This document shows positions 35,708-56,169 of a stretch of 64,000 nucleotides of DNA, piece after piece. The stretch comes from Herbiconiux moechotypicola (lineage in GTDB: Bacteria > Actinomycetota > Actinomycetes > Actinomycetales > Microbacteriaceae). Under the pieces are notes generated by a model. It had not been told where the DNA came from, made no database searches, and was given only the letters and a program-made list of their open reading frames with translations. Position 1 is the stretch's first letter, and the number at the start of each line of letters is the position of its first letter. Made by a program: the position numbers and the translations under genes. The stretch is taken from the NCBI RefSeq assembly GCF_024979255.1, contig NZ_JANLCN010000004.1, positions 1-64,000 of the forward strand. Reading direction: 5' to 3'.

Positions 35708-38700
35708 GTGATCAGAACTCGACCCTGCGCTCGCTGGCTGACGGCGTCGCTGCTGGCGACCACGCTTTTCCTCACCGCCGTCGTGGGTGACCAAACCGCG
35801 TTCGCTGAGGTGCCCGACAGCCCTCGCGTCGACGAGCAGCCGGTCGAGGGCGAGCAGCGGGGAGACCTTCCTGCCGATGGTTCAGGGAGCGTTGCCGAAG
35901 GGGATCGCGACCGCTTGCTCGGGTCTGAGTGGGCGGAGAGCGAAGACATCGCCTGGGCTCTCGCAGGCGATAGATCCGGGATGCACGTGCTTCGAGCGGC
36001 AGCTCGTGAGGGATATGCCTGGTCGCAGGTGGCCTCGCTCACGGCGGTCGGCATCGAGACCGACAGGTGGATCGGAAACGGCTGCCTCGCACCCGACGGG
36101 CGAACCCTTGCCGTGGTCTACGGGGCTCGCACCTTCACCAATGACGACCAGACCATGAATCGTGGTGGGTTCGGAGCGCTGATCGACATCGTCGACGGAA
36201 CGGTCACTGACCTCGGCCGGGGCTACAGCATGTCGTACTTCAACCCGGGCTGCGGCGTCGGCGATGAGGTCGCCTTCAGTGCCTTCGCCGACGACTTCGC
36301 CCGTACGCGGGTCGACGTCGTCGATATCCGATCACGCGAGATCGGGTGGCAGGTCGAGGCAGCGGGACAGATCACCTCGGCCACGATGTCGGCCGAGGGG
36401 CTCGTCGGCTCCGGCGCGCACGGCGTGGTTTCGGTGGGTCGCGACGGAGCGACGACCCCACTCATCGAGACATCGAGCGTTCCGTACGACATTCGCGCAG
36501 GACGCGACGGCAGCTTGACGTTCCTCACGCAGACGGACGGTGTTGCATATGTGAACTACGCGAGCGACCCGCTCAGCGGTACCGATCTCGTCGTGCTTGC
36601 CACGGGCCCTGCCGATGAGGTGACCTCGACCCAGGCCGCGACAGGAGATGTCTTCGTGACCGGTGCGCAGGTCGATTCACTCGTCACTGATATGCCTGAC
36701 GACCTGCGGATGATCGACGCTGCATGGCGGTCGACGGCGAGTTCGCGAGGTGAGTTGGTGGTCTCGCCGGTCAAGGTGAGTGATGTTCCGGCCTCCGATC
36801 CCACGACGACCCAGTCGATCGAGCTGGACGCAGTCTCCACGACGACCGCGGCGCGGGTCGGGTTCTCCGCCAGCGCTGTGGCGTTCGACGCGGATTCTAC
36901 GACGACCAGTGAATCTGTGCTCACCGGCGGACGTGGTGCCGGCTCGGCCACCGAACAGATCGAAAGCGAGCGCGTGTGCGCGGTGCCGCGCAACGACCCG
37001 GGCAGTCAAGCCCTGCAGCCCAAGCCACGCCAGGTCGAGTGGGCGGTGGATCGAGCAGTCAAGGGAACGCTGACCGTCTCGCGCCCGGCCGGCTGGAAAA
37101 ACCTCGGCATGCCTGCCTACACCCCGCAATCGCTCTTCCCGAAGCCGGCGTTGAACGGCGGCGGCACGATTCCGGCCCAGGTGCTCTTGGGTGTGCTCGC
37201 TCAGGAATCGAATCTCTGGCAGGCCTCGACTTATACGACCCCCGGAGTCACCGGTAATCCCCTGATCGGGAATTTCTACGGGAACGACCGATCAGCGAGT
37301 GAGGACGACTTCTGGGACATCGACTTCTCGAAATCCGACTGCGGTTACGGAGTTGGGCAGATTACCGACGGGATGCGGATGGCCGGTCGTGAGGGTGGGG
37401 CGCCCACCGCATTGCCTGTCGCCCAGCAGAGAGCGATCGCACTCGACTACGCGGCGAATGTCGCGAAGTCCGTTCAGATGCTCAGCGAGAAGTGGAACAC
37501 GACGCGAGCCGCAGGTCTGACGATCAACAATGGCGACTCGCGCTACCTCGAGAATTGGTTCTTCGCAGTGTGGGCGTACAACACAGGGTTCTACCCCGAC
37601 AAGAAGGACGGGTCGCCCTGGGGTGTCGGCTGGCTCAACAACCCGGCCAACCCCGCGTGGGATCCCGCGCGTGGCCCCTTCCTGGATCGGAGTCCAGGCG
37701 ATGCTGCGACTCCCCAGCACTGGCCTTATCCCGAGAAGGTGATGGGTTTCGCGGCACACCCGATCGATCTCTTCGAAGACGAAGACACAGCCGTCCAGGC
37801 CTTCCGTCCCGCCTACTGGCTCGCCTCCGACGGGCGTGACGGCGAGCTCAACCGTGCCACCGTGAAGCCGCCCATCAATACGTTCTGCAAGGCCTCGAAT
37901 TCGTGCGCTCCTGGCACCAAACAACAACCGTCCGACCCCGCCGAGAAGCCCGGTCCCTGCCTGCACAAGGATGGCGCCGGTGCCTACGACCTGAAGTGCT
38001 GGTACCACGGCAACGCCACCTGGAAGGGTGACTGTGACAGCCAATGCGGCCGCGAGTTCATCCGCTTCGACCCGCCGAGTTCCTACCCCAACGAAGAGCC
38101 CGACGCCACGAGCTTCCCGCCGAACTGCACCCCCGCGGGCCTTCCCCCTGGAACTCTCGTGATCGACGACATCCCGAACGGCACCAGGTCTTCCCGGCCC
38201 TCGGTGTGCGGTTCACCAGTCGCCTCGAATGGCTCGTTCTCTTTCGCCTTCGGCGCCGACGCGGACGGTCGCTACCCGTCCAAAATGGACCTCCACCAAC
38301 TCGGCGCCGGCTTCAACAGCCACTTCTACTTCGCCCACACCCGCACTCCTGGCAGCAAACCTGACACCTACCACGGCGGAAGCTTGAACGTCACTGGCAC
38401 CTGGACGCTCGGAAGACCGCTATCCCAATGGGCGCGAGTCCTGGTTCACCTGCCAGATCATGGTGCGTGGACGCAGCAGGCCGTGTACAAGGTCAACCTT
38501 GGCGACGGCACGATAAAACAGCGGGCGCTGCTGCAACGTCAAGGAGCGAACACCTGGGTGAGTATCGGCGCCTTCAACTTCTCCGGGACTCCTAGTGTCT
38601 CGCTGACGAATGTGACGCAAGACGGGATCGGGATCGATGACATCGCCTGGGACGCCGTCGCAATTCAACCACTCACCACCAAACCCTCCGACTTCGTCGT

Positions 38701-40546: not shown

Positions 40547-40551
40547 ACAGC

Positions 40552-41091
40552 ATGAGCGTTGGTTCGCGTATCCAGGGGTGCTTCATCTTCGTCGTGGGGT
40601 CGATCGGCGCGCTTGTCGCGCTGGTGCTGCTGATCTGGACGCTGCTGCCGCTGATGACGTTCTTGCCATCGGCGGAGGAGCAGGAGGCGGCGGAGCAGGT
40701 GCGGAACGCAGTGCGTAACGGTGCCGAGGTGTTCGGGGAGCTGGCAGAGGAGTCGTCGGAGGGCGAGCTCGCCAAGTCGCTGGCGCGAGGTGAGACGGGA
40801 TTCACGACGACACTGGTGGGTAAGTCGATCGCAGAAGTCGATGCCATGTCGTTCCCCTCGGGGGATGTCGAGGTCTACGACATAGATGCCGACATGCTCA
40901 CCATCACCGTGATCGGACTCGGGTACGCGTCGGGAGCGGGTTGGATAAGCAGCAGCGCGTCCGCCTACGGCTGCGCGGAGTTAACGGCGAAGCCGGGAAG
41001 CAACGAGGTAGACGTGAGGAACGTCGAGTGCGAAGAACCCGTGCTGACGGGGATCGGGTCGCACTGGGGGAGCGCGGTGAGCGCCACGTGA
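40552..41091 (+). CDS. Membrane-anchored unknown protein, 179 residues
   Basis: One long hydrophobic stretch (residues about 9-38, FIFVVGSIGALVALVLLIW and onward) followed by a helical acidic segment and a beta-rich extracytoplasmic domain (FTTTLVGKSIAEVDAMSFPS, MLTITVIGLGYASGAGW) with two cysteines near the end. It begins five bases after the exoprotein stop, so both are probably co-transcribed, and it may anchor or assist that protein. No family recognised. Confidence 0.75.
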   Translation: MSVGSRIQGCFIFVVGSIGALVALVLLIWTLLPLMTFLPSAEEQEAAEQVRNAVRNGAEVFGELAEESSEGELAKSLARGETGFTTTLVGKSIAEVDAMSFPSGDVEVYDIDADMLTITVIGLGYASGAGWISSSASAYGCAELTAKPGSNEVDVRNVECEEPVLTGIGSHWGSAVSAT

Positions 41092-41214
41092 ACAATTGAG
41101 GCGCAACCCGCATCCGCCGCACCAGCCCGACTCCCACCCGGCGGCCCGTCACCGCTTCTGACGGTACGATTGTGAAAGAAGTCACCTCTCGTGGCTCACG
41201 AGGGGGATGAATTC

Positions 41215-41391
41215 ATGAAGGCTTTCGCGTGCGGAGACGTCGTGCCGGGCTGCGCCGCCAGTTGGACGGCGACGAGCGATGACGACCTGCTGGTGCTGGT
41301 GGGCGCCCACGCCCACGCCGCCCACGGCATCGAGGAGGTCACTCCCGAGCTCGTCGACAGCGTGACCCGACACATCGTGGCGCTCTCCTGA
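41215..41391 (+). CDS. DUF1059 small protein, 58 residues
   Basis: A short DUF1059-type protein: MKAFACGDVVPGCAASW at the start with the two typical cysteines, a hydrophobic core (LLVLVGAHAHAAHG) and the ending VTPELVDSVTRHI. The ATG at 41215 follows AGGGGGAT. The family has no settled function; it is common in actinobacteria and sometimes fused or adjacent to other domains. Its stop TGA overlaps a CTG that is the only possible start for the next EAL gene. Confidence 0.85.
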   Translation: MKAFACGDVVPGCAASWTATSDDDLLVLVGAHAHAAHGIEEVTPELVDSVTRHIVALS

Positions 41392-42509
41392 CGCAGCCCG
41401 CCGACTGGCCGGCGCTGCTCGACGCGCTGGCCGGCGGAGTCGGCGTCGAGATCGCCTATCAGCCGATCGTCGACACGGCGCGCGGGGTGGTCGCCGGGTA
41501 TGAGGCGCTGGCGCGGTTCCGTGACGGCGACCTCGAACGGCTCCCCACCTCGGAGGTGTTCGGCCGGGCGCGCGAGCTGGGCCGGGCCGCCGCACTCGAA
41601 GCGGCCTGCCTGCGGGCGGGGCTCGGCGATCGAGACGGGCTACCGTCCAACTGCTTCCTCACCGTCAACGTCTCTCCCGGGTTGCTGCCCGAGCCGGAGA
41701 TCCGCGCGGTGTGGGACGATCATCCCGATCTGCGCGGGGTGATCGTCGAACTCACCGAGCGCAGCCGCATCGACTCCTACACCGGGCTCGAACCCCAGCT
41801 CGATCGGCTGCGGGGCACGGGGGCGCTGATCGCCGTCGACGACGCGGGGGCCGGATACGCGGGGCTGACCAGGATGCTCGCGCTGCGGCCCGCGCTCATC
41901 AAGCTCGACCGCGAACTGGTGAGCGGCATCGACCGCGACGAGGCGAAGCGGGCGCTCGCCGAGATGATCGGCGGCTTCGCGGCGCGCATCGACTCGTGGC
42001 TTCTCGCCGAGGGGGTGGAGACCGAGGCGGAGTACGCCACGATCGCCTCGCTCGGCATCCCGCTCGCGCAGGGGTACGGCATCGCGCGGCCCGGTCCGGC
42101 GTGGCCGGAGCTCGCGCGGGCGCTGCCCGTGATGCCGGCACCCGCGGGGGCGTCGTCGCTCGCCCGGCACGTGGGAGAGGGTGTACCGGCCGCGCGATCG
42201 GTGGCGGAGGCCGCCCAGGTGCTCGGCGCGCATCCCGAGACCCGCACGGTGGTGCTGGTCGACGAGTTCGACCGGCCCACCTCGGTGGTGGACAGCGAGA
42301 GCGCCGCCCTGGGGGTCGTGTCGACCGGTTTGCGGATGAACCTCGACACCCCGGTGCGTGAAGCGCTCCTCCGCGCGGTCACCCGCGACAGCGCGGAACG
42401 GTACGACCCGGTGATGCTCACCGACAGCGCCGGGCGCTACGCCGGGATCGCCCGCATGGAACGCCTCATCACGGCGGCCCTCGGCGGGTGGCAGACTACC
42501 GGTCTATGA
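41388..42509 (+). CDS. EAL-domain cyclic-di-GMP phosphodiesterase (likely CTG start)
   Basis: The protein has a complete EAL domain: IAYQPIVDTARGVVAGYEALARF, NVSPGLL, IVELTE, VDDAGAGYAGL, IKLDRELV, AEGVET and QGYGIARP, so it should hydrolyse c-di-GMP. A CBS-like region follows (residues about 250-370). There is no ATG, GTG or TTG between the in-frame stop at 41280 and the GTG at 41487, and that GTG would cut off the first conserved strand and the YQPI motif. The CTG at 41388 overlaps the DUF1059 stop (CTGA) and is the only start that keeps the domain whole, unless a frameshift fuses both proteins. The stop overlaps pdxY by four bases. Confidence 0.8.
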   Translation: MTQPADWPALLDALAGGVGVEIAYQPIVDTARGVVAGYEALARFRDGDLERLPTSEVFGRARELGRAAALEAACLRAGLGDRDGLPSNCFLTVNVSPGLLPEPEIRAVWDDHPDLRGVIVELTERSRIDSYTGLEPQLDRLRGTGALIAVDDAGAGYAGLTRMLALRPALIKLDRELVSGIDRDEAKRALAEMIGGFAARIDSWLLAEGVETEAEYATIASLGIPLAQGYGIARPGPAWPELARALPVMPAPAGASSLARHVGEGVPAARSVAEAAQVLGAHPETRTVVLVDEFDRPTSVVDSESAALGVVSTGLRMNLDTPVREALLRAVTRDSAERYDPVMLTDSAGRYAGIARMERLITAALGGWQTTGL

Positions 42510-43357
42510 GAATCCTCTCCATCCAGTCCGCCGTGGCCTACGGGCACGTCGGCAACTCGGCCGCCGTCTTCCCGCTGCAGCGCATCGGGGTGGAGGTGAT
42601 GCCGGTCTACACCGTGAACTTCTCCAACCACACCGGGTACGGGGCGTGGCGCGGGCCGCTGATCGACCCCTCGGACGTGGCCGCCGTGCTCACGGGTATA
42701 GAGGAGCGCGGGGTGTTCCCCTCGGTCGACGTGGTGCTCTCGGGCTACCAGGGTGGCACGGGGATCGGCGACGTCATCATCGACGCCGTGCGCCGGGTGA
42801 AGGAGGCCAACCCCGACGCCATCTACTCCTGCGACCCGGTGATGGGCAACGCGAACTCCGGATGCTTCGTGGCCCCCGAGATCCCGGTGCTGCTGCGTGA
42901 TCGGGTGGTGCCGGTCGCCGACCTCATCACGCCGAACCAGTTCGAGCTCGGCTACCTCACCGGCACCGAGCCGGTGTCGCTCGACGAGACGCTCGACTCG
43001 GTCGACGCGGCGCGGGCGATGGGGCCGTCGACGGTGCTCGTGACCAGTGTGCTGGACGCGGCCGAGAGCGAGGGCGTGATCGGCATGATGGCCGTCGACG
43101 ACGAGGGGGCGTGGCTCGTGCGCACCCCGCTCATCCCGATGAAGGTCAACGGCTCGGGCGACGTGACGGCGGCGCTGTTCACCGCGCACTACCGGCGCAC
43201 CGGCAGCGCGGCGGAGGCGCTCGAGCGCACGGCGTCGAGCGTGTTCGACCTCATTCAGGCCACCTTCGACGCGGGCTCGCGGGAGCTGCTGCTCGTCGAA
43301 TCGCAGGAGTTCTTCGCCCACCCCCGCCTTCAATTCACCGCCCAGCGCCTCCGCTAA
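42506..43357 (+). CDS. pdxY: Pyridoxal kinase PdxY
   Basis: A 283-residue pyridoxal kinase that phosphorylates pyridoxal in vitamin B6 salvage. Marks are LSIQSAVAYGHVGNSAAVFPLQRIG, the NHTGYG motif, the substrate loop VLSGYQG, DPVMGN, and the anion-hole region VNGSGDVTAALF. The ATG at 42506 overlaps the EAL gene stop (ATGA). Linkage of B6 salvage to a c-di-GMP phosphodiesterase is unusual and may be only an operon of convenience. Length is normal. Confidence 0.93.
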   Translation: MRILSIQSAVAYGHVGNSAAVFPLQRIGVEVMPVYTVNFSNHTGYGAWRGPLIDPSDVAAVLTGIEERGVFPSVDVVLSGYQGGTGIGDVIIDAVRRVKEANPDAIYSCDPVMGNANSGCFVAPEIPVLLRDRVVPVADLITPNQFELGYLTGTEPVSLDETLDSVDAARAMGPSTVLVTSVLDAAESEGVIGMMAVDDEGAWLVRTPLIPMKVNGSGDVTAALFTAHYRRTGSAAEALERTASSVFDLIQATFDAGSRELLLVESQEFFAHPRLQFTAQRLR

Positions 43358-43384
43358 GCAAAGGGTAGCGATTTATCCTTTGCT
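43357..43384. promoter_or_regulatory. Inverted repeat upstream of fic
   Basis: AGCAAAGG at 43357-43364 and CCTTTGCT at 43377-43384 form an 8-bp inverted repeat with a 12-bp spacer, just upstream of the fic start at 43396 and touching the pdxY stop. It is AT-rich for the region. It may be an operator, possibly for the Fic protein's own C-terminal winged helix, or it may act as terminator of the pdxY operon. Confidence 0.6.
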
Positions 43385-43395
43385 AAGATCGAGGG

Positions 43396-44595
43396 ATGAA
43401 CACAGAGTCTCGCGAGTGGCCCGCCGTCGCGTACGAGACGCTGCCGTGGCATCGCAGCGGTGACGACATCGGGTCGCGGAGGTCGATCAAGGCGTCCATC
43501 GGGCCCTACGACGCGGCCATTCCGCCGAAGATCGCCACGCTCGACGTGACCGTGCCCAGTGGGATCCTGGCCGAGGCCGATGACGCCACGAACGAGATCG
43601 CGCGCTTCGATGCCGCCGTCGGCTCGCTCACGGCACCGTTCTCGTCGATCCTGCTGCGCACCGAGAGCGCCTCCAGCTCGCAGGTCGAGAACATCACCTC
43701 CAGTGCCAAGCAGTTGGCGCTGGCCGAGATCCGCCGATCGACCTCGGGTAACGCCCGGCTGGTGGTGGCGAACGTGCGCGCCATGAAGGCGGCCATCGAG
43801 CTCGCGGACAGACTGGATGCCGAATCGGTGATCGACATGCATCGCGCTCTCCTGGAGGAGAGCGATCCCGGCATCACGGGGCACTGGCGAGACGTGCAGG
43901 TGTGGATCGGTGGTGGTGGGTTGTCGCCTCACGCGGCGGCATTCGTTCCCCCGGCACCGGCGAGGGTTCCCGAACTCATGGACGACCTCATGGAGTTCAC
44001 CCAGCGCGCCGACATTCCGCTGCTGGCGCAGATCGCGATCGCCCACGCCCAGTTCGAGACCGTGCACCCCTTTCCCGATGGCAACGGGCGCACCGGCCGG
44101 GCCCTGGTGCAGGGCATGCTCCGGGGCGGCAGGCTCACCCGCTCGGTGATCGTGCCGGTCTCGGCCGGACTGCTCCACGATCTCCCGCGCTACATCGAAG
44201 CGCTCACCGCCTACCGCAGGGGAGCCATCGAGCCGATCATCGAAGCCTTCGTGGAGGCGTCGTTCGCCGCGATTCGCAACGGATGGGTGCTCGTCGATGC
44301 CCTGCAGGCGACCCGCGACCGATGGGATTCGGTGCTCGTAGCCCGATCGGACTCGTCGGTGCACGCGCTGAAGACGATGCTCCTCCGTCAGCCCGTGGTC
44401 TCGGCGACGACGGTCGCGGAGGGCTTGGGAGTGAGTGAGGTGACCGCCCAGACGGGGATCGACCGTCTCGTCGACTCGGGCATCCTGAGGCAGGCCGGTG
44501 GCGGTCAGCGCTACCGGCTGTACGAGGCGCGGGAGGTGCTGGAGGCGCTGGACGCGTTCGCGGCGAGGGCTCGGAGAAGTGGACGGGGCGCTTAG
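43396..44595 (+). CDS. Fic-family AMP-transferase with C-terminal winged helix
   Basis: A 399-residue Fic protein. The catalytic loop HPFPDGNGRTGR (from His224) is canonical, so it should transfer AMP to a protein Tyr, Ser or Thr. An inhibitory motif of the S-x3-E-N type is present in the N-terminal part (SSQVEN, residues 94-99), where Glu98 would keep it self-inhibited. The N-terminus (WPAVAYETLPWH...) matches the long Fic/DUF4172 group, and the C-terminus (about 310-395) is a winged helix (TVAEGLGVSEVTAQTGIDRLVDSGIL) that could bind DNA. The inverted repeat ahead of the gene would suit autoregulation. Target unknown. Confidence 0.93.
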   Translation: MNTESREWPAVAYETLPWHRSGDDIGSRRSIKASIGPYDAAIPPKIATLDVTVPSGILAEADDATNEIARFDAAVGSLTAPFSSILLRTESASSSQVENITSSAKQLALAEIRRSTSGNARLVVANVRAMKAAIELADRLDAESVIDMHRALLEESDPGITGHWRDVQVWIGGGGLSPHAAAFVPPAPARVPELMDDLMEFTQRADIPLLAQIAIAHAQFETVHPFPDGNGRTGRALVQGMLRGGRLTRSVIVPVSAGLLHDLPRYIEALTAYRRGAIEPIIEAFVEASFAAIRNGWVLVDALQATRDRWDSVLVARSDSSVHALKTMLLRQPVVSATTVAEGLGVSEVTAQTGIDRLVDSGILRQAGGGQRYRLYEAREVLEALDAFAARARRSGRGA

Positions 44596-44610
44596 GTTAG
44601 CCTTACCATA
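44592..44610 (+). promoter_or_regulatory. DtxR/IdeR-type iron box upstream of gltB-like operon
   Basis: TTAGGTTAGCCTTACCATA matches the 19-bp DtxR/IdeR consensus (TTAGGTTAGSCTAACCTAA) at 16 of 19 positions; the left half is perfect. It overlaps the fic stop codon and lies about 50 bp before the gltB-like start, in promoter position. Iron-loaded DtxR would repress the operon, so the genes should be on when iron is scarce. Confidence 0.75.
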
Positions 44611-44662
44611 GCCAAGCCGTCCCCGGTTGGGGAGAGTATCCCGACCGGATCGGAAGCCGCCT

Positions 44663-47600
44663 GTGAAGAACACCCGCCTCGGACTGTATGACCCTGCCCG
44701 CGAGTCGAGCGACTGCGGCGTCGGCTTCATCACCCGCAAAGACGGCGTGCAGACCCACGACGTGATCCTGCGTGGCGACCAGGCGCTGTGCGCCATCCCG
44801 CACCGCGGCGGCATGTCGTCGGAGGGCGTGGGCGACGGCGCGGGCGTGAGCATCGACCTCTCGGTCGAGTTCTTCAGCGCGCTCACCGGCCGCGCGCTCG
44901 AGCCGGGGCTGTTCGGCGTGGCCAACCTGTTCATGCCCGCCGACCCCGGCGCGTGGGAGGCCGCGGGCGAGCTCGTCTCCGAGCAGCTCGCCGCCACCGG
45001 GCTCGAGGTGCTGCTCGTGCGCGAGGTGCCCACCGACGACTCCTCGACCGTGGCCGCCGCCGCGGCCTACCAGCTGCAGATCGTGCAGTGGGTGTTCGCC
45101 GCCCCCGAGGAGTGGACGCGCGCCGAGGTCGACCGCGCCGCCAACACCGCGCTGCTCGCGATCGAGAGCGCCGCCTTCGACCCCGCGCGCCCCGAGCTCG
45201 CCGGCCTCTACCCGCTCTCGCTCAGCGCACGCACCCAGGTGCTCAAGGGCCGCCTCAACGCCGGCGAGGTCATCTCGTACTTCACCGACCTGCTCGACGA
45301 GCGGCACAGCGTGCGCACCCTCTACTTCCACACCCGCTTCTCCACCAACACCGAGCCGCACCCGAGCATGGCGCAGCCGTTCCGCATGATGGCGCACAAC
45401 GGCGAGCTCAACACCGACCGCAAGAACCGTCTCTCCGACGAGGCCCTGGCCACGAGCCGGTCGCGGCGTATCGTGCGCCCGCCCGGCCAGTCCGACTCCA
45501 GCCGTCTCGACCAGACCCTGCAGAGCCGCGTGTTCGACGACGGGCTCGACTTCGTCGAAGCCGTCGTGTCGCTCATGCCTCCGGCGTGGGAGAACGACCG
45601 CTCCCTCCCCGGCGAGGTGCGCGACATGCTCGAGTTCTTCTCCCTCTACGAGGAGAAGAACGACGGTCCCGCCGCCCTCATCTTCAGCGACGGCGACGTG
45701 GTGGGCGCCCGCCTCGACCGGCTCGGCCTCCGCCCCCTGCGGTCGGTGGAGACGGCCGACTACCTCATGGTCTCCTCCGAGGCCGGCCAGGTGGCCTTCC
45801 CCCACTCCGAGGTGGTGCACCGAGGCCGTATCGAGGCGGGCGGGATGCTCTACCTCGACCACCGCACCGGGCGCATCCACCGCACCCGCGAAGCGCTCGA
45901 GATGCTCGCCTCCCGTCGCGACTACGGTGCGCTGCTAGCCGACGCACGGGTGAACCTCGACGAGCTGCCCGCGCCGGAGTTCGACCGCGGCACCTCGACG
46001 CTCGGCTACCAGGGCGACCTCAGCCCGGCCGGCCGCTATGTGGCCTACTCGCTCAACCAGGAGAGCTTCCGGTTCATGATGGACCCGATGCTCGCCTCCG
46101 GCGCCGAGCGCATCTCGGCCATGGGTTACGGCAACGCCATCAACGCGCTCAGCGACCAGGAGGGCGGCATGGCGAAGTACTTCTCGCAGCGCTTCGCCCA
46201 GGTCACCAACCCGCCGCTGGACAGCATCCGCGAGGCCGACGGCATGAGCATGCGGGTGGCGCTCGGCGCGAAGCCCGACGGCGGTTCGGGCGGCGGCGTG
46301 CAGCTCGTGGTGCAGACGCCGGTGCTCAGCCACCTCGACATGGTGCGCCTGCGCGAGCAGCGCCTGGTGCCGCTGCAGCGCTTCGACCTGCTCTACGCGC
46401 CCGAGGTGAACGACACCGCCGCGAACGCGCGGTCGGTTCAGGATGCACTCGGCGCGCTCTGCGACGACGTGGAGGCCTTCGCGCGCGAACACGGCGGCAT
46501 CGCCGTCGTGAGCGACCGCAACGTCTCCACCACGCGGGCCCCGTTGCCGCTGGTGCTCGCCCTGGCGGCGGTGAACCAGCGCCTCATCGAGACCGGGCTG
46601 CGGCTGCGGGTGTCGATCGTGGCCGAGAGCGGTCAGCTGCCGTCGTCGCATCACGTGGCCGTGGCACTCGGTTTCGGCGCCTCCGCCGTCTACAGCCTCT
46701 CGGCGCGGCTGCGCGCCGAGGAGAAGTACCCGAGCCCGGCCATGCCCGCCGACGAGATCACGGCCACCGACCTCGCGTTCGGCAAGTTCCGCAAGGCGGC
46801 CGAGAAGTCGCTGGCCAAGACCATGGGCCGAGTCGGGCTCTGCACGGTGGAGAGCTACATCGGCGGCGAGTTCTTCGAGCCGAACTACCTCGACACCTCC
46901 GACCCGGTGCTGGCGCCCATCTTCCCGCACCTCGACGCCCCGGTCGGCGGCGTGGGGTTCGAGCGGATCGCCCAGGCCGCCAGCGACTGGCACGCGCGGG
47001 CCTGCGCGGTCGAGAACGAGAACCAGATCCCGCTGCTCGGGCTGTTCAAGGAGCGGGCGGAGGGTGCCGGGCACTCCTTCGGCACCACCGCGGTGCGCGG
47101 GTTCGCGGGCATGACCGAGGAGCCGATCGAGTTCGGGCGTGAGGAGGGTGGCGGTGCGGCGGTCGGCGCTGCTCCGGGTGCGACCGCTCATGACGAGAGC
47201 AGCGAGCACAGGGCGCTCCGGCTGCTCACCCTGGGTCAGCTCGAAGACGCCTTCGGGCTCGACGACAAGGCCTACGCCCACAGCGGCTACGAGGCCCTGA
47301 CCGACGAGCAGATCGACGCCTTCCGCATCACCCCCGGCTACCGCGACTTCGTCTCCACCACCGTGGCCGAGCGGCTGCGGCGGCCGAGCGCGCTCCGCGA
47401 CGTGCTGGCGCTGCCGGCCGACGTGACGGCGCTCGGAACGGCCGAGGAGTTCGCGCTCGAGCTGCGCCGGTTTTCGGCGCACGGCAACAGCAGCATCCTG
47501 GTGCGCGGTCTCGCGGTGACCGCGACCGACGGCGGCGACGCATCCGGAGCCTTCGCGCTGCGCCTCACCGACACCGACGAGGTCGACGTGCTGCGCCACG

Positions 47601-50266
47601 AGGCGTTCGCCGCCTTTCTCTGGGAGGTCGACCCCGGGGGCCTCGTGGTGCACGGGGTCGACTCCGAGGGTGTGCACGTCACCGCCACGGGCACGCTGCG
47701 CGCCTTCCTCGAGCTGCTGCGCCCGGCTCCCGACCGGGTGCCGCTCGACGAGGTGCAGCCGGCCCACGAGATCACCCGCACCCTCGCCTCGGGGGCGATG
47801 AGCCACGGTGCGCTCGTGGCCACCGCGCACGAGGCCGTCGCCCACGGCACCAACATGGTGGGCGGCATGTCGAACAGCGGCGAGGGCGGCGAGAACCTCT
47901 CCCGCTACGGCACCATCCGCGGCTCGCGCATCAAGCAGTTCGCCTCGGGGCGCTTCGGGGTGTGGGCGGGGTACCTCGCCGACCCGATGCTGCAGGAGCT
48001 CGAGATCAAGATCGGCCAGGGCGCGAAGCCGGGCGAGGGCGGGCAGCTGCCCGCGCCCAAGGTGACCGTCGACATCGCGGCGGCCCGTGGCGGCACCCCG
48101 GGCATCGAGCTCATCTCGCCCCCGCCGCACCACGACACCTACTCCATCGAAGACCTCGCTCAGCTCATCCACGACTGCAAGGCCGCGCGCGTGCGGGTGA
48201 TCGTGAAGCTCGTGTCGAGCGAGGGCATCGGCACCATCGCCGTCGGCGTGGCGAAGGCCGGCGCCGACGTCATCAACGTGGCCGGCAACACCGGCGGCAC
48301 GGGTGCTGCGGCGGTGACGAGCCTCAAGTACGCCGGCCGTTCGGCCGAGATCGGCGTGGCCGAGGTGCACCAGGCCCTGCTCGCCAACGGCCTGCGCCAG
48401 AAGGTGACGCTGCGCTGCTCGGGCGCGCACCAGACCGGCAGCGACGTGGTGGTGTCGGCGCTGCTCGGCGGCGACAGCTTCGAGTTCGGCACCACGGCGC
48501 TCATGATGCTGAAGTGCGTGATGGCCAAGAACTGCAACATCAAGTGCCCGGCCGGCCTCACCACCAACCCCGAGGTGTTCGACGGCGACCCGCGGGCGCT
48601 CGCGCAGTACCTGCTCAACATCGCGCACGAGATCCGCGAGATCCTCTCGCGCCTCGGCCTGCGGTCGCTCCGCGAGGCGCGGGGTCGCACCGACCTTCTG
48701 CAGCTGCTCGACCACCCCGCCAGCGTGGGGCGCCTCGACGTGCGCGCCATGCTCGCCCCGGTCGAGGAGAAGATCGTGACCGACCCGATCTACCTCGAAA
48801 AGGACTTCGAGGTCGACGACACCCTGCTCGAGGCCGTGCGCGCCGCCCTGGTCGAGCGGGCCGAGCCCTCGGTCCGCCTCGGCGGCATCAGGCTGCGCAA
48901 CCGCAACAAGTCGGTGGGCGGCCAGTTCTCCATCGACATCGAGCGGATGCTCAATCACGGCCCCGAGGCCGGCGCCCTCGCCGCGCTCCCGGCCGTGCGC
49001 ACCGACGACCGCGGCCGCCGCAGCCTCGTGCCCGACGCGGTCGAGATCCACACCACCGGCTCGGCGGGCCAGTCGTTCGGCGCGTTCTGCAACGACGGCA
49101 TCCTGCTCTCGCACACGGGCACCGCGAACGACGGCGTGGGCAAGAGCGCGTCGGGCGGCCGCATCGTCGTGCGCGATCCCGGTGGGGGCAGCCTCGAGCG
49201 CGGCGGGAACGTGCTCATCGGCAACTTCGCGCTGTTCGGCGCCACCGGCGGGCGCACCTTCGTGGCGGGCGAGGCCGGCGACCGGTTCGCCGTGCGCAAC
49301 TCCGGTGCCACCGCCGTGGTGGAGGGCATCGGTGAGTTCGGCTGCGAGTACATGACCGGCGGTGCCGTGTTCAACCTCGGCGGCTTCGGCAAGGGCCTCG
49401 GCAACGGAATGAGCGGCGGGTTCCTCTACCAGTACGACCCCCGGGGTGAACTGGCCGACAAGGTCTCCGCCGACTCGCTGGTGACCTTCCCGATCACCGA
49501 CGAGGCCCATGGCGGGTTCCACGAGCAGGCCGCGCTGCTGCTGCTCGAGTGGCACCTCGAGGCCACCGGCTCCCCGCTCGCCGCACGTCTGCTGGAGAAC
49601 TGGGACGAGGAGCGACAGCACGTGTTCTGCGGCATGCCGCGAGCGCTGCTGCTCTACCAGGACGCCGACGCCATCCTCGCGGCCAAGACGCGCAAGGAGC
49701 TGCTCGACGAGCTCGCCACGGCCGTGGCCACCGACAAGCTGCGAGCGTTCAAGACCGACTACCGTGACAGTCACCCGGTGCTCGGCGGGCAGGTTCCCGG
49801 CGCCGATGACGCGGGCGGCGACATGTTCTCGCTGCTGTCGTCGTACACGGTGCTGAGCGTGGCCCAGGAGATCGCGCTCGAGCGCGTGCCAGGAGCCGCG
49901 GGAGCGGCCGACCCGCGGGTGCAGGACGCGGTGCGCAAGCTCGTGCTCACCGAGGACTTCTTCGTGATGCAGAAGGTGCTGCGCTACCTGCGCGACACCC
50001 TCGAGGTGTTCGGCGACGACGAACTCGCCACCCTCATCGCGATGAAGCGACTCGACGACTACAAGCGGGCGCTCGCGCTCCGCAACGTGCTCGGCATGGA
50101 TGCGCCGGGCACCTACGGCTGGATCCTGCACCAGCAGGCCAAGAACGCGGGGCGCCTCCGGCAGGCGAGGTTCGACGAGCTGCTGGCCTCGGCCGCGCTC
50201 GACGACCTGGCGCGGCGGGCGGCCGCGGAACCCGGGCTCGCCGCGGCGGCGGGAGCGGGATCGTGA
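44663..50266 (+). CDS. gltB: Glutamate synthase large-subunit-like protein (GltB-like)
   Basis: A protein of 1867 residues with the full GltB layout. Cys18 of SSDCGVGF is the expected glutaminase nucleophile after removal of a short propeptide; [10 protein letters not shown] and AHNGELNT confirm the amidotransferase. A central domain ([28 protein letters not shown]) leads to the FMN domain ([38 protein letters not shown]) and a [3Fe-4S] site with Cys1285, Cys1291 and Cys1295. The GXGXG beta-helix domain ([29 protein letters not shown]) ends near residue 1600, followed by an extra helical tail. GTG 44663 follows GGAAG. It is about 350 residues longer than usual, spacing of the third Cys is one less, and the usual DGGLKTG is CSGAHQTG. 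No gltD is next to it. Confidence 0.9.
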
Positions 50267-52056
50267 CCGGCGTGCACATCCCGGCCGACGCCCCGTTCAG
50301 CACCGCCCAGCGCACCTGGCTCGGCGGATTCTTCGCAGGGATCGCGGCGCTGCGCGCGCTCACGCCCGACGCCGCCTCCGGCGCCGGAACCCTCACGGTC
50401 GACGCCCTGGTGGGCACCCAGACCGGCAACAGCGAGTTCCTCGCCCAGGACCTCGCTGCGGCGGCCCGGCAGCGCGGCATCGTGGTGCGCACCGCCGAGC
50501 TCGACTCCGTGAGCGTGGAGCAGCTGGCCGCGATGCCGCTCGTGCTCGTCATCACCTCCACCTACGGCGAGGGCGAGATGCCCGACAACGCCGAGCTGTT
50601 CTGGGAGGCTCTGGCGGCGGAGGGGGCACCCCGGCTGGAGGACACCCGGTTCGCGGTGCTCGCGCTGGGAGACAGCGGCTACGACGACTTCTGCCAAGCG
50701 GGCAAGCTGATCGACCTGAGGCTCGAGCAGCTCGGCGCCATGCGCCTGGTGCCGCGGGTGGACTGCGACGTGGACTACGAAGACGCCGCGGCGGGGTGGA
50801 TCGCGGACGTGGTGGAGCGGCTCGCGGTGGAGGTGCCGGCCGGCGGGGGTACGGCCGGCGGGGGAGCGGCCGCCGGGGCCGGGGCTGGCGGGGCCGGAGC
50901 CGTCCCCGCGACGGAGGCGGGCGCCGCCCCCGCCGCCCGCCAGCGCTCGCCCTGGAACCGCAAGACCCCCTATCCCTCCCGCCTCGCCGTCAACCGCATC
51001 CTCTCGGGCGACCGCAGCGCCAAGGAGATCAGGCACTATGAGCTCGACCTCGGCGACAGCGGCATCGCCTACGCCTCCGGCGACGCGCTCGCCGTGGTGC
51101 CCGAGAACGATCCCGCCCTGGTGGCCGAGGTGCTGACGCAGCTGGGCATCGACCGCGACGAGGAGGTGGCCGGCGCCGCGCTCGGCGAGCTGCTGCACAC
51201 GGCGTGGGAGATCCGCACCCCCTCCAAGGAACTGCTCGCGGCGATCGCCGAGCAGCAGCCCGCGGGCGACCTCGCCGCGGTGCTCGCGCACAGCGACCGA
51301 GACATGCTCGAGAGCTGGCTGTGGGGCCGCGACACCCTCGACGTGCTGCGCACCGCTCCCGGCCTGAGGTTCGAGCCCGATGCCCTGCCCGCGCTGTTCC
51401 GGCCCCTGCAGCAGCGGGCCTACTCCATCTCGTCGAGTCCGCTCGCGAGCCCCGACCGCATCCACCTCACCGTGGCCTCGGTGCGGCACGGCGACGACGG
51501 CCGGATGCGCGGAGGCGTCTGCTCGACGCACCTGGCCGACCGGCTCGCGGCCGAGCATCCGGTGGGCGTCTACCTGCAGCCGAACGCCGCGTTCCGGCTG
51601 CCGGCGGACGACGACGCACCCGTGGTGATGATCGGTCCAGGCACGGGCATCGCGCCCTTCCGCGGCTTCTTGCAGGAGCGGGAGGCGCGCGGCGGGTCGG
51701 GCCGCAACTGGCTGTTCTTCGGCGACCAGCACCGCGACAGCGACTTCATCTACGAGCAGGAGCTCGGCGCGTGGTCGGCGAGCGGCGTGCTCACCCGCCT
51801 CGATCTGGCGTTCTCGCGCGACCAGGCCGAGAAGGTCTACGTGCAGACCCGGATGCGCGAGCACGGCCGCGAGCTCTACGACTGGCTCGAACAGGGCGCG
51901 TCGGTGTACGTGTGCGGCGACGCCTCGCGCATGGCGAAAGACGTGGACCGGGCGCTGCACGACGTGATCGCCGAGCACGGCGGCGGGGCCGCCCGGGCCG
52001 AGGAGTACGTGGCAGGGCTCAAGCGCGCCAAGCGCTACGTGCGGGACGTGTACTGA
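50263..52056 (+). CDS. CysJ-like diflavin reductase (flavodoxin-FNR fusion)
   Basis: A 597-residue NADPH-dependent diflavin reductase like the sulfite reductase flavoprotein subunit. The flavodoxin-type FMN domain shows [25 protein letters not shown] and [14 protein letters not shown] (residues about 40-190). A Gly/Ala-rich linker follows (about 190-225). The FAD/NADPH part has RAYSISSSP (FAD), [23 protein letters not shown] (NADPH) and [13 protein letters not shown], ending in Tyr as in the family. GTG 50263 overlaps the gltB-like stop by four bases. No cysI or nitrite reductase is nearby, so its electron acceptor is probably the GltB-like protein, the HemS-like protein or both. Confidence 0.9.
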
Positions 52057-53048
52057 TGGCGGGCGAGAAGGAAGCGGCTCGTAGCGCGAGGCTGCAGGAT
52101 CTGCTCGGGCGTGAGGGGCTGACGGTACGCGAGCTCGACCTCACCGCCGCCCAGCTCGGAGCGCTGCTGCCGCTGCTCGGTCACGCCGTGGCGGAGACCG
52201 CGAACCACGCCGTGGAGATCAGCCAGTCTGGCGCCTACCGGGAGGCCGGCGTGTGCGGCGAGGCGTTCGGAACCGGCGGCGGTGACGGCGCGTCGGTGCG
52301 GTTCCACCCCGAGTCGGTCGGCACCGCGGTGGTCTGTGCGCCCTCCGAATCGGCGGGGCACGGCGATCACGTGGGCGACGGTGCCGGATGCGCGCTGGAG
52401 GTGTTCACGCCGGCCGGAGAGTCCGCCCACCGGGTGCGACTCCACGCCGCCGCCGACCGTCGGCTCGCGGAGCGGGTGGCGCGGGGTGAGTTCCGTCCTG
52501 ACCCCGTGTCGCGCATCCCGTCGTCGTGGCGCACGAGCGGCACGGCCGCGTGGCCCTACCGACCCTGGGCCGACGTGGGCTGGGAGGGCGCCGACCAGCT
52601 CGCCCAGCTCGACGAGATGCTCACCGACGGCGGCGTGAGGCGCAGGCGACGGCTCGCGACCGGCGGCGGGGCGCCGATGTCGCCCCGCGAGATCGACGTG
52701 ACCGTGCTGCCGCTCGTGCTCGAACACCTCTGCGCCAGGGGTCTGCCCGTCACCGCGGCGGTCTTCGCTAGCGGGGTCATGCAGGCCGCCGCCGGACGCG
52801 TGCACGCCGTCGCCCGGGCGGGTGACCGCATCCGGGTGCTCGTGGGCGGCGCCGTGATCGAGCTCGACCCGGTGGCCGCCGCCGATGCGCTGGTCGTGAA
52901 CGCCCACGGTGTGCACGGCCCCACCGCGGCCGTGGAGCTGTACGACGGCGACGGCGCGTGCGTGGTGGCGTTCACGCAGCTCGGCATGGTCGGCACCTCA
53001 GACCACGAGGCCTGGCAGCATCTCACCGGTTCCCTGCCCGCCGCCTGA
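52056..53048 (+). CDS. HemS/ChuS-like haem-binding or haem-degrading protein
   Basis: A 330-residue protein that follows the two-repeat plan of HemS/ChuS/HmuS. The first half contains LLPLLGHAVAETANHAVEIS, then GAYREAG, VRFHPESVG, LEVFTPAGESAHRVRL; the second half contains LPVTAAVFASGVMQAAAGRVHAVARAG, AAADALVVNAHG and the ending AAVELYDGDGACVVAFTQ with AWQHLTGSLP, all in the order seen in haem-utilisation proteins. ChuS breaks haem open and accepts electrons from a cytochrome P450 reductase-type donor. ATG 52056 shares its A with the stop codon of the diflavin reductase (TGATG), so they are coupled. With an iron box ahead of the operon, iron release from haem is the likely job. Confidence 0.8.
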   Translation: MAGEKEAARSARLQDLLGREGLTVRELDLTAAQLGALLPLLGHAVAETANHAVEISQSGAYREAGVCGEAFGTGGGDGASVRFHPESVGTAVVCAPSESAGHGDHVGDGAGCALEVFTPAGESAHRVRLHAAADRRLAERVARGEFRPDPVSRIPSSWRTSGTAAWPYRPWADVGWEGADQLAQLDEMLTDGGVRRRRRLATGGGAPMSPREIDVTVLPLVLEHLCARGLPVTAAVFASGVMQAAAGRVHAVARAGDRIRVLVGGAVIELDPVAAADALVVNAHGVHGPTAAVELYDGDGACVVAFTQLGMVGTSDHEAWQHLTGSLPAA

Positions 53049-53069
53049 CGGCGGGCGTAGGGTGGCCGC

Positions 53070-53354
53070 ATGGCACGCGAGTTCGAGCACGACACCGAGA
53101 AGCACCGCTACACGCTGAAGGTCGACGGGGCGCTGGTGAGCGCGGTCGACTACGTGGCGAACGAGGGCACGGTCTCGTTCACCCACACCTTCACCGATCC
53201 CAAGCAGCGCGGCCACGGCTACGCCGGCGAGATCGTCGGCTTCGCGATCGACGACGTCGAGGCGCGCACCGAGGACCGGGTCATCCCGATGTGCTGGTAC
53301 GTGGGCAAGTGGTTCGACGAGCACCCCGAACGGGCGCACCTTCTCACCCGCTGA
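53070..53354 (+). CDS. GNAT-type N-acetyltransferase, YjdJ-like, 94 residues
   Basis: A short Gcn5-related acetyltransferase of the YjdJ/NATD1 group. Marks are VSFTHTFTDPKQRGHGYAGEIVGFAIDDVEAR, where RGHGYAG binds acetyl-CoA, and IPMCWYVGKWFDEHPE at the end. Most of the usual substrate-binding half is missing, as normal for this mini-GNAT group. It begins 21 bp after the haem gene and may belong to the iron-box operon. A terminator follows. Confidence 0.9.
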   Translation: MAREFEHDTEKHRYTLKVDGALVSAVDYVANEGTVSFTHTFTDPKQRGHGYAGEIVGFAIDDVEARTEDRVIPMCWYVGKWFDEHPERAHLLTR

Positions 53355-53372
53355 TTGTTGCTAGAGTGATGC

Positions 53373-53398
53373 GTGGGGAGGGCTTCGGCCCTCTCCAC
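53373..53398 (+). terminator. Intrinsic terminator after the iron-box operon
   Basis: GTGGGGAGGGC and GCCCTCTCCAC pair over 11 bp (one G-U pair) around a TTCG tetraloop. The stem is followed only by a weak T stretch (CATTTAACG). It lies 18 bp after the GNAT stop and about 90 bp before the MFS transporter gene. Confidence 0.78.
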
Positions 53399-53486
53399 CA
53401 GCATTTAACGGCCGGTTTCCTTCTGCCGGCACGAGCCTGATCGGCTCCCGGGGCGTACGTTCGATCGCGTCTCGAGGAGGTGCGCG

Positions 53487-54992
53487 ATGGCGCAGAAGAA
53501 GGATGCGGTGGGCGACGACGCGCCCCGCAAGAGCGTGCGGAGCCTGGTTCCGGCGCGCATGGACCGGCTGCCGTGGACGAGGTTCCACTGGATGGTGGTG
53601 TTCGGACTCGGTGTCTCCTGGATCCTCGACGGCCTCGAGATCCAGATCATCGCCTCCAACGGCTTCCAGGAGTCGCTCGGCATGGACTCCGCCCAGGTCG
53701 GTCTCGCCGGCACCATCTACCTCGTGGGCCAGGTGGTGGGTGCCCTCGTGTTCGGCCGCTTCGCCGACAAGTGGGGGCGCAAGAAGCTCTTCATCATCAC
53801 CCTCGCCGTCTACCTCGTGGGCTCGGCGGCAGCGGGTCTGTCGCCGAACATGGAGTTCCTCTTCGCGATGCGCTTCGTGGCCGGGCTCGGCATCGGGGGC
53901 GAGTACGCGGCCATCAACTCGGCCATCGACGAACTCATCCCGAGCCACTACCGCGGCCGGGTCGACATCGCCATCAACGGCACCTACTGGGGCGGCGCCG
54001 CCCTCGGCTCCGTGGCCAACCTGTTCTTCTTGAACCCCGACAACTTCGCCGAGAACATCGGCTGGCGGCTCGCGTTCTTCATCGGCCCGATCCTCGGTCT
54101 CGTCATGATCTACATGCGACGGCACATCCCCGAGAGCCCGCGCTGGCTCATGACGCACGGCAAGGAGGACGTGGCCGAGAAGACCGTCGACGAGATCGAG
54201 GCGCGGGTGGAGAAGGACACCGGCAAGAAGCTCGACCCCGTGCCCGACGACCAGGCCATCGAGGTGACGCCGCTGGACCGCATCCCGTTCCGCCGCATCG
54301 CCTCCGTGCTCATCCGCGACTACCCCAACCGCACGGTGGTGGGGCTCACCATGATGATCACGCAGTCGTTCCTCTACAACGCCATCTTCTTCACCTACGC
54401 GCTCGCGCTGCAGAACTTCTACGGGGTCGAGAACGATGCCGTGCAGTACTTCTTCTTCCCCTTCGCCATCGGAAACCTCCTCGGGCCGCTCGTGCTGGGG
54501 CACCTCTTCGACACCTGGGGTCGGCGCAAGATGATCCTGCTCACCTACGGTGTCGCGGGCGTCATCCTCACCGTCTCGGGCTTCCTGTTCCAGGCCGACG
54601 TGCTGAACGCCACCACGCAGACGGTGTTCTGGTGCGTGTCGTTCTTCTTCGCCAGCGCCGGGGCCTCCTCGGCCTACCTCACGGTGAGCGAGCTGTTCCC
54701 GCTCGAGATGCGCTCGCAGGTCATCTCGTACTTCTTCTCGATCGGCCAGATCGTGGGCTCCGTCGCCCCCGTGCTGTTCGGTGTGCTCATCGGCGACGGG
54801 GAGGACCGCGGGCCCATCACGATCGGCTACATCGGCGCGGGGCTGCTCATGCTGGTGGGCGGAATCGTGTCGTTCATCTTCGGGGTGAACTCCGAGCGCA
54901 AGCCGCTCGAGGCCATCACGAGCCCGCTCTCGGCCGTCAACCCGGGCAAGACGGCGGTGGAGGGCGAACGCACCACGCGACCGCGCGGCTGA
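53487..54992 (+). CDS. Major facilitator superfamily transporter (sugar-porter-like)
   Basis: A 501-residue MFS transporter with twelve membrane segments. Marks include GRFADKWGRKKLF between helices 2 and 3, FVAGLGIGGEYAAINSAIDELIP, PESPRWLM in the central loop and the second-half repeat LFDTWGRRKM. It resembles inner-membrane metabolite and aromatic-acid or sugar symporters; the substrate is not clear. ATG 53487 follows an excellent GAGGAGGT ribosome binding site. The gene forms its own unit after the terminator and is convergent with the beta-helix lipoprotein gene (5-bp gap). Confidence 0.9.
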   Translation: MAQKKDAVGDDAPRKSVRSLVPARMDRLPWTRFHWMVVFGLGVSWILDGLEIQIIASNGFQESLGMDSAQVGLAGTIYLVGQVVGALVFGRFADKWGRKKLFIITLAVYLVGSAAAGLSPNMEFLFAMRFVAGLGIGGEYAAINSAIDELIPSHYRGRVDIAINGTYWGGAALGSVANLFFLNPDNFAENIGWRLAFFIGPILGLVMIYMRRHIPESPRWLMTHGKEDVAEKTVDEIEARVEKDTGKKLDPVPDDQAIEVTPLDRIPFRRIASVLIRDYPNRTVVGLTMMITQSFLYNAIFFTYALALQNFYGVENDAVQYFFFPFAIGNLLGPLVLGHLFDTWGRRKMILLTYGVAGVILTVSGFLFQADVLNATTQTVFWCVSFFFASAGASSAYLTVSELFPLEMRSQVISYFFSIGQIVGSVAPVLFGVLIGDGEDRGPITIGYIGAGLLMLVGGIVSFIFGVNSERKPLEAITSPLSAVNPGKTAVEGERTTRPRG

Positions 54993-54996
54993 GGGC

Positions 54997-56169
54997 TCAG
55001 GATGCGCAGGGTGCGTTGGAGAGGGCGTCCGGCGCGGGCAGCGAGTCGAGCAGGGCGACGTTGTCGCACGAGACGGCGTTTCCGGCGCCGAGGGCGTCGC
55101 CCGACAGCTTCACGGCGAAGCCGTCGGGGTCGCGAAGCGCGAAGGTGTTGGCCGAGAACTCGTTGCCGGCGCCCCAGCCATCGACGATCACGTGCACCTG
55201 CGCGCCGTCGACCGGTGCACCCGTGCCCTCGTTGCCGGTCACGCGCCAGCCGGAGCCCTTGACGTCGAGGAGGGAGTCGGCCGCCGACATACCGGTGCCG
55301 TCGAGCTGGTTGCCGCGGATCTCGCCTCCGGTCGTGCCCTCCTTCACGTCGATCGACTCGGCCGAGGTGGAGGCGATGACGTTGCCGACCACGCGGTTGC
55401 GGTCGCTGCGGTCGGGCTCGCACGCCGAGACGTCGCACCAGTTCGACTCGGCGCTGCCGACGTACACGCCCTCGCCGAAGCGCTCCTCCCGCAGGCCGGT
55501 GTCGGAGATCGTCGAGCCGATCAGCAGGTTGTCGCCCGAGCCCGCCCTGAAGTGCACGGCCTCGTCGCCGGTGCCCGACACGGTGAGCCCTCGCAAGACG
55601 GTGTCGGTGGTGGCATCGAGCATCACGCCCTTCTGGCCGCCCCGCACGGCGAAGCCCTGCAGCACCCAGTGCGCCGCGCCGTCGAGGTGGAGGGTGTAGC
55701 CGGAGTCGACCTCGCCGCCCTCGAGAACGGCGCCCGTTCCGACGGCGCACAGCAGGATCGGATCGTCGGCCGTGCCCTGCGCGGTGGCGGTGAAAGTGCC
55801 TTCGTACCGACCGTCGGCGAGCGCGATGACCGACCCGGGCCGGGCGGCGGCCAGCGCGCGCGTCAGTTCGGCGCCGGTCGAGACCACGGTGGAGGTGGCT
55901 CCGGATGCGGGGGCGCCGGCCGGAGGACAGGCGACGGGCGCGGCCTCGGGCTCACCCCGGAGCAGATCGGGGTCGACCTCGACGGGGGCGATGTCGGCAG
56001 GGTCGGCGACCGATCCGTCGCCCGCCGTCGGACCGGCGGTCTGCGTGCCACCGCCGGGTGAGGAATCCCCTGGCAGCCAGTAGGCGGTGCCCGTGCAGGC
56101 GCCGAGCGCGAGCGACACAGCCGCCCCGAGCGCCACGGCCACCGCTCTCGAGGTGTGCCGGGCCCGCAT
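54997..56169 (-). CDS. Secreted right-handed beta-helix lipoprotein
   Basis: A 390-residue exported protein. The signal peptide has the lipobox ALGAC (Cys25), then a linker rich in Gly, Ser and Thr. The rest (about residue 85-390) is a right-handed parallel beta-helix of the pectate-lyase type, with many short repeats such as GTVVR-like rungs: DTVLRGLTVSG, GDNLLIGSTISDTG, RNRVVGNVIASTSA, GEIRGNQLDGTG, GNEFSANTFAL. Such proteins bind or cut acidic polysaccharides, or epimerise uronates. It is divergent from the glycosyltransferase gene, suggesting one polysaccharide system. Confidence 0.86.
   Translation of the reverse strand: MRARHTSRAVAVALGAAVSLALGACTGTAYWLPGDSSPGGGTQTAGPTAGDGSVADPADIAPVEVDPDLLRGEPEAAPVACPPAGAPASGATSTVVSTGAELTRALAAARPGSVIALADGRYEGTFTATAQGTADDPILLCAVGTGAVLEGGEVDSGYTLHLDGAAHWVLQGFAVRGGQKGVMLDATTDTVLRGLTVSGTGDEAVHFRAGSGDNLLIGSTISDTGLREERFGEGVYVGSAESNWCDVSACEPDRSDRNRVVGNVIASTSAESIDVKEGTTGGEIRGNQLDGTGMSAADSLLDVKGSGWRVTGNEGTGAPVDGAQVHVIVDGWGAGNEFSANTFALRDPDGFAVKLSGDALGAGNAVSCDNVALLDSLPAPDALSNAPCAS

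Follow-up and report, generated by a model that had tools for sequence, protein, structure and literature searches.

The canonical glutamate synthase that depends on reduced nicotinamide adenine dinucleotide phosphate (NADPH) pairs GltB with GltD, whose two [4Fe-4S] clusters hold 8 of the 11 iron atoms of each alpha-beta pair. In N-methylglutamate synthase (MgsABC) the glutaminase, GXGXG and flavin mononucleotide (FMN) parts form separate subunits. The locus described here lies in a 64,000-nucleotide stretch of the Herbiconiux moechotypicola genome (contig NZ_JANLCN010000004.1, positions 1 to 64,000, hereafter the window) and has three co-directional genes on the + strand behind a DtxR/IdeR-type iron box: a gltB-like gene, a cysJ-like gene and a hemS-like gene. 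We lean towards the hypothesis that the operon product is a second glutamate synthase made in iron starvation, in which a flavin-only NADPH reductase does the work of GltD.

A glutamate synthase adapted to low iron makes physiological sense because the canonical enzyme is reported to be lowered in iron starvation. According to passages of the respective papers, the canonical gltBD genes of Caulobacter fall in iron limitation (PMC3751524), GltB of strain CPTF falls in an iron-starvation-like state (PMC9938188), and the iron-sparing response of Bacillus subtilis includes glutamate synthase (as cited in PMC9938188). Within the same limits, the gltB2 mRNA of Staphylococcus is given as a putative target of the iron-sparing small RNA IsrR, its stability being unaffected (PMC9410917). 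No published description of the GltB-like and CysJ-like pair, or of the trio, was found in the open-access full-text literature.

The gltB-like and cysJ-like gene pair and its iron box

The gltB-like gene (44663-50266, + strand) starts with GTG and codes for an 1867-residue protein with class II glutaminase (Cys18), central, FMN/2-oxoglutarate and GXGXG domains, matched in Pfam by GATase_2, Glu_syn_central, Glu_synthase and GXGXG, plus two family-specific regions. Its end overlaps by 4 bp the cysJ-like gene (50263-52056, + strand), whose 597-residue product is an NADPH diflavin reductase with FMN and flavin adenine dinucleotide (FAD) domains (Pfam Flavodoxin_1, FAD_binding_1 and NAD_binding_1). 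A further overlap of 1 bp leads into the hemS-like gene (52056-53048, + strand), an optional third gene for a 330-residue protein with a Pfam HemS match in its carboxyl-terminal half; its start is the ATG at 52056, as the longer open reading frame (ORF) from 51204 would overrun the cysJ-like gene. The iron box (44592-44610, no strand assigned) ends 52 bp before the gltB-like start and overlaps the stop codon of a Fic-domain gene located upstream (43396-44595).

A scan of genome contigs with the GltB-like protein gave 399 relatives, the best 80 of which were kept, so that more distant members lie beyond the sample. The cysJ-like gene directly follows the gltB-like gene in 80/80 loci, with the contig ending inside it in L037, L039 and L059. 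Among the 79 gene pairs with a measured gap, 49 show -4 bp, including that of the window. Evolutionary distances of the two proteins are correlated in a mirror-tree comparison (r 0.96 for 78 pairs), while 500 shuffles reach 0.10 at most. The GltB-like protein, cast as an accessory in the first-pass annotation of this DNA, is instead the constant partner of the reductase. That annotation had also made the conserved neighbourhood of all three genes its own check, which stands for the pair and falls for the hemS-like gene, found in 26/80 loci with three contigs too short to tell.

The catalytic motifs of GltB are kept throughout the family. The glutaminase cysteine preceding HRGG is found in 81/81 GltB-like proteins and the glutamine-site motifs HNGELNTD and SDS in 79/79 of those aligned, the same amino-terminal cysteine and glutamine-site combination that characterizes the class II glutaminase of GltBD. 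A loop that we take to be the 2-oxoglutarate site is kept in 79/79 GltB-like proteins, is invariant in a 31-row alignment and is identical in 12/12 canonical domains fetched. The iron-sulfur (Fe-S) motif (48515-48547, + strand) differs from the C-x5-C-x4-C of the [3Fe-4S] cluster in GltBD: its spacing is C-x5-C-x3-C in 81/81 GltB-like proteins (78 loci and the window, plus L035 and L037), a sample slightly biased towards this motif since one of the six scan patterns lies partly on it. Other glutamate-synthase domains have C-x5-C-x4-C wherever they extend to the motif (18/18), namely the genome's own canonical GltB and 17 of 20 fetched from the host genomes, the other three stretches ending just before it.

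Other features set the family apart. In a midpoint-rooted tree of the FMN domain all 79 long GltB-like proteins form one clade (support 0.925). An insert of about 170 residues (stretch 47045-47686, + strand) separates the central and FMN domains; its best PDB match reaches only E 0.32, and Pfam has no family for the window copy at E up to 1. For the carboxyl-terminal region of about 210 residues (49625-50263, + strand), a cut-off of E 1 gave no hit in the PDB or, for the window copy, in Pfam. The window protein scores 1010 against the NCBIfam GltB cut-off of 1047, and its relatives L028 and L066 also fall just below.

The CysJ-like protein occupies the place of GltD, the Fe-S flavoprotein partner in GltBD. 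It has the FMN, FAD and NADPH domains of CysJ, with homology to PDB 6efv over the full length of the FMN and FAD domains (E 1e-123), and a domain search found no Fe-S domain in it. Searching the H. moechotypicola genome with this protein yields nothing beyond itself at E up to 0.001. The same genome carries canonical gltB (1630 bits) and gltD (685 bits) genes elsewhere, at C1. Canonical GltB (at least 474 bits) is also present in 38 of the 42 pair genomes searched, which account for 42 of the 80 loci; it is lacking in Mycetocola reblochoni and in three metagenome bins, of which one shows split pieces.

The box sequence TTAGGTTAGCCTTACCATA agrees at 16/19 positions with TTAGGTTAGSCTAACCTAA, which we take to be the DtxR/IdeR consensus; rescoring and gene calls confirm the first-pass description of a 16-of-19 box leading into three overlapping genes. 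Control windows of 410 bp drawn from the same 64 kb, 152 in all, score 11/19 at best. On both strands there are only two other matches of at least 12, each of exactly 12, one overlapping the box and the other 320 bp further on, and 40 simulated windows gave no match of at least 14 on one strand. A box scoring at least 13 recurs at 27/35 actinobacterial pair promoters outside Curtobacterium versus 7/1983 tiled control windows and 4/281 other gene starts; the 35 promoters include the window and leave out L035, whose gene start was not called, and are not 35 independent events since the loci are related. Upstream of the genome's own canonical gltB the best score is 9.

Among the proteins of the genome is a close IdeR homologue (E 5e-76 to 7b1v and 1e-73 to IdeR 1fx7), so that operator and regulator of a DtxR/IdeR regulon are both present. 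In the 4.28 Mb genome, a degenerate box pattern designed to include the window's own site has 8 sites with up to 2 mismatches, and the reversed pattern has 0. Four of the seven other boxes precede iron genes (SIP, two Peripla_BP_2 genes for siderophore binding, and FecCD), a fifth lies between the 3' end of an HtaA gene and the gene of a family-less secreted protein, and the remaining two are found before an AraC-type regulator and before another family-less secreted protein. The IdeR homologue, the boxes adjacent to siderophore genes and the recurrence of the box at pair promoters together make the predicted control of the operon by a DtxR/IdeR-type repressor well supported, and lend the same support to the initial proposal of one iron-repressed operon. 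Rfam returned one chance-level microRNA match (E 0.62) and no riboswitch or other known leader RNA for window positions 40000-56000, and only tRNA for six related loci.

Distribution and surroundings of the pair

The pair is common to Actinobacteria, Alphaproteobacteria and a Methylobacillus. Streptomyces copies group with those of Curtobacterium, and the carboxyl-terminal region of the GltB-like protein is found in nine plasmid records, where the annotation reads 'glutamate synthase-related protein' or gltB. We read this spread across phyla, the Streptomyces/Curtobacterium grouping and the plasmid copies, combined with rarity within the phylum, as pointing to a horizontally moving module. The flanks beyond the pair differ between genera. 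A shared genomic context beyond the pair was considered and dropped for this reason, the mevalonate genes next to the Curtobacterium pairs being taken as lineage neighbours.

In the Corynebacterium relatives (L051, L053, L056 and L059) a ribulose-phosphate epimerase gene and the riboflavin gene ribD are transcribed divergently from the pair, possibly reflecting a linked flavin supply. In Mycetocola reblochoni (L060) the long GltB-like protein seems to be the sole full GltB, and no protein of the NIR_SIR (CysI-type) family was found there. Elsewhere in the window, positions 7742-14051 (- strand) code for a Type I restriction system with HsdR-like and HsdM-like proteins and an extra ORF in between. 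An ORF of 1612 residues at 35708-40546 has CW_binding_2 repeats and GDSL-lipase-like and golvesin-like stretches, with a codon score low for its length.

Proposed function and alternatives

The iron-starvation glutamate synthase would work as follows. With plentiful iron, Fe-IdeR bound to the box would repress the operon; under scarcity the repression would be lifted and the operon products made. Electrons from NADPH would pass through the FAD and FMN of the CysJ-like reductase and reach the FMN of the GltB-like subunit by way of the altered Fe-S cluster. The GltB-like subunit would release ammonia from glutamine and convert 2-oxoglutarate to glutamate by reductive amination. GltD and its two [4Fe-4S] clusters would be dispensed with, and the family-specific carboxyl-terminal region of the GltB-like protein may be the dock for its CysJ-like partner. 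The order and pairing of the genes, the conserved box, the altered motif, the retained glutaminase and 2-oxoglutarate motifs and the canonical GltBD encoded elsewhere are read from sequence, and expression of the pair, complex formation, reaction, cluster type and iron saving are inferred. The chances seem evenly balanced that the pair is a new class of glutamate synthase, moving horizontally and repressed by iron, with a cytochrome-P450-reductase-type flavoprotein for GltD, a re-spaced Fe-S cluster and two new domains, through which the glutamine synthetase/glutamate synthase (GS/GOGAT) route would be kept at low iron. If true, it would show how some bacteria still assimilate nitrogen when iron is low, provide a clear case of a whole reductase subunit swapped for a flavin-only one, and offer a glutamate synthase with a non-standard Fe-S site for study.

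Several observations weigh against this hypothesis. The residues before GGTG in the FMN site are GNT, not GHD, GFD or GFE as in other glutamate synthases, so that a different acceptor is possible. The three invariant cysteines indicate that the GltB-like protein probably still needs an Fe-S cluster, and the iron saving would be only partial. The core model leaves the hemS-like gene unexplained. Few genomes carry the pair, 4/396 of those sampled from the phylum (own included), and it therefore does not answer a general need in iron starvation. The iron box is not universal either: scores of at least 13 are found in 0/17 Curtobacterium pairs, where no box is convincing, and in 2/28 Proteobacteria. 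A TGA-N9-TCA element, described as the RirA motif in a passage of PMC8822346, is present at the promoter in 10/27 proteobacterial loci scanned, nine times 21-26 bp before the inverted repeat GTCAG-N5-CTGAC or a variant, and elsewhere upstream in five further proteobacterial loci. As a RirA-like site of Rhizobiaceae it is a weak candidate because its TGA half falls on the -35 element and because the loci are related.

Other conserved elements are seen at these promoters. Curtobacterium loci (L029, L032, L040 and others) have, about 80-130 bp upstream of the pair, a conserved GTAGCATCGCCTCACCGCA-type stretch and a CCCACAGGGCCCGACTGCCAC leader with no good DtxR box; the pair may be under different control in this genus. 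The rhizobial promoters, 14 of the 27 loci scanned (L065-L076, L083 and L103; L080 without the repeat), have in common TTGACT, a TATAGG-type -10 element and the GTCAG-N5-CTGAC repeat or a variant. Agrobacterium-type loci continue with a leader of about 200 nt that contains conserved GC-rich stretches and, in the two tried (L066 and L083), has no Rfam match. Repeat and leader possibly correspond to an unknown regulator or an RNA element.

Among the alternatives, it is conceivable, if doubtful, that the GltB-like protein aminates another 2-oxo acid or uses another amine to yield an iron-starvation metabolite such as a siderophore precursor. Its FMN-site residues and Fe-S spacing, both unlike those of the other glutamate synthases examined, and its two regions without family match would suit such a substrate, but the presumed 2-oxoglutarate loop is invariant and no siderophore-biosynthesis family appears among the few dozen neighbours run through Pfam.

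We consider it unlikely that the pair uses a glutamate-synthase scaffold for iron release, as a ferric-siderophore or haem reductase. Such a role would fit the siderophore receptor, esterase, binding-protein or FecCD genes that lie near the pair in at least 6/80 loci (L035, L077, L086, L100, L101 and L105). It would also fit a plasmid of Ketogulonicigenium vulgare, where the pair comes first, then a hemS-like gene (profile E 4e-51, annotation hypothetical) and genes for an AraC regulator, a TonB siderophore receptor and a siderophore binding protein. The same neighbours, in the six loci and on the plasmid, also speak for the iron-starvation glutamate synthase. However, a ferric reductase would have no use for the glutaminase and 2-oxoglutarate machinery, all of which is kept, and a blastp screen with a few queries, short of full annotation, revealed no such neighbours in the remaining 74 loci.

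Still less probable is the idea, put forward in the first-pass annotation, that the CysJ-like reductase feeds electrons to haem breakdown by the HemS-like protein, with the GltB-like protein as a helper. All three proteins belong to one operon, an HtaA-type gene adjoins another box of the genome, and a profile of 25 HemS-like members matches HemS 2j0r over its whole length (E 8e-37), predicting the two-repeat HemS fold. Yet the HemS-like frame is open in only 26/80 related loci (18/35 other Actinobacteria, 0/17 Curtobacterium and 8/28 Proteobacteria, with a remnant in L044), in a search at E up to 1e-3 that could miss more diverged relatives and with the contigs of L037, L039 and L059 ending before the position is visible. 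In the window's family, 7/199 genomes (own included) have a match to the window HemS-like protein, two of them weak (E 6e-6 and 3e-4). Its members are poorly conserved, with 18-39% identity to the window protein versus 61-76% for GltB-like proteins across loci. The column aligned with His196 of HemS, presumably the axial haem ligand, is His in 1/25 members; the following column holds His in 13 members and Gln in 11, with Gln in the window protein, and a misalignment by one residue is possible. The poor conservation of this histidine position and the patchy occurrence of the gene speak against the proposed electron transfer to haem, and the HemS-like protein is perhaps an optional accessory for haem or iron handling. 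In two Rhodococcus loci a stand-alone flavodoxin gene directly follows the cysJ-like gene, in the place of the third gene (L079:17285-17728 and L081:17282-17731), a neighbour that counts in favour of the iron-starvation glutamate synthase.

Finally, that the CysJ-like protein is a plain sulfite reductase subunit beside a redundant gltB is highly improbable: its best named model is CysJ (TIGR01931, 579 bits, below the 668 cut-off) and 38/42 pair genomes have an NIR_SIR protein somewhere, but the nearest of these among the matches listed is about 40 kb from the pair (G212), the protein is co-inherited with its GltB-like partner, and NIR_SIR is missing from 4/42 other pair genomes (three Curtobacterium and Mycetocola) and from H. 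moechotypicola itself, where the idea is refuted unless the assembly (99.9% complete) misses cysI. In the genomes without NIR_SIR proteins, to judge from their gene content, the reductase cannot serve a siroheme sulfite reductase for want of that partner.

Comparison with known systems

We file the pair as a variant of glutamate synthase, not as GltBD. It shares with GltBD the domain order of GltB, the glutaminase cysteine, the 2-oxoglutarate loop and the FMN and GXGXG domains, and departs from it by the CysJ-like protein replacing GltD, the C-x5-C-x3-C motif, the extra insert and carboxyl-terminal region, the separate clade, the iron box and the NCBIfam score below cut-off. The single 1867-residue GltB-like chain is unlike the separate subunits of the N-methylglutamate synthase type. 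The reductase resembles CysJ of NADPH sulfite reductase in its full-length FMN and FAD domains but scores below the model cut-off, follows a GltB-like protein and has no CysI-type partner in the genome. The HemS-like protein matches HemS 2j0r, of the HemS/ChuS type, by its full-length family profile; it differs by the axial histidine position that is not kept, its strong divergence and its absence from many loci. The closest functional parallel may be the swap of flavodoxin for ferredoxin in iron starvation, in which a flavin carrier likewise replaces an Fe-S one under iron control, whereas here the whole reductase subunit of an enzyme appears to have been swapped.

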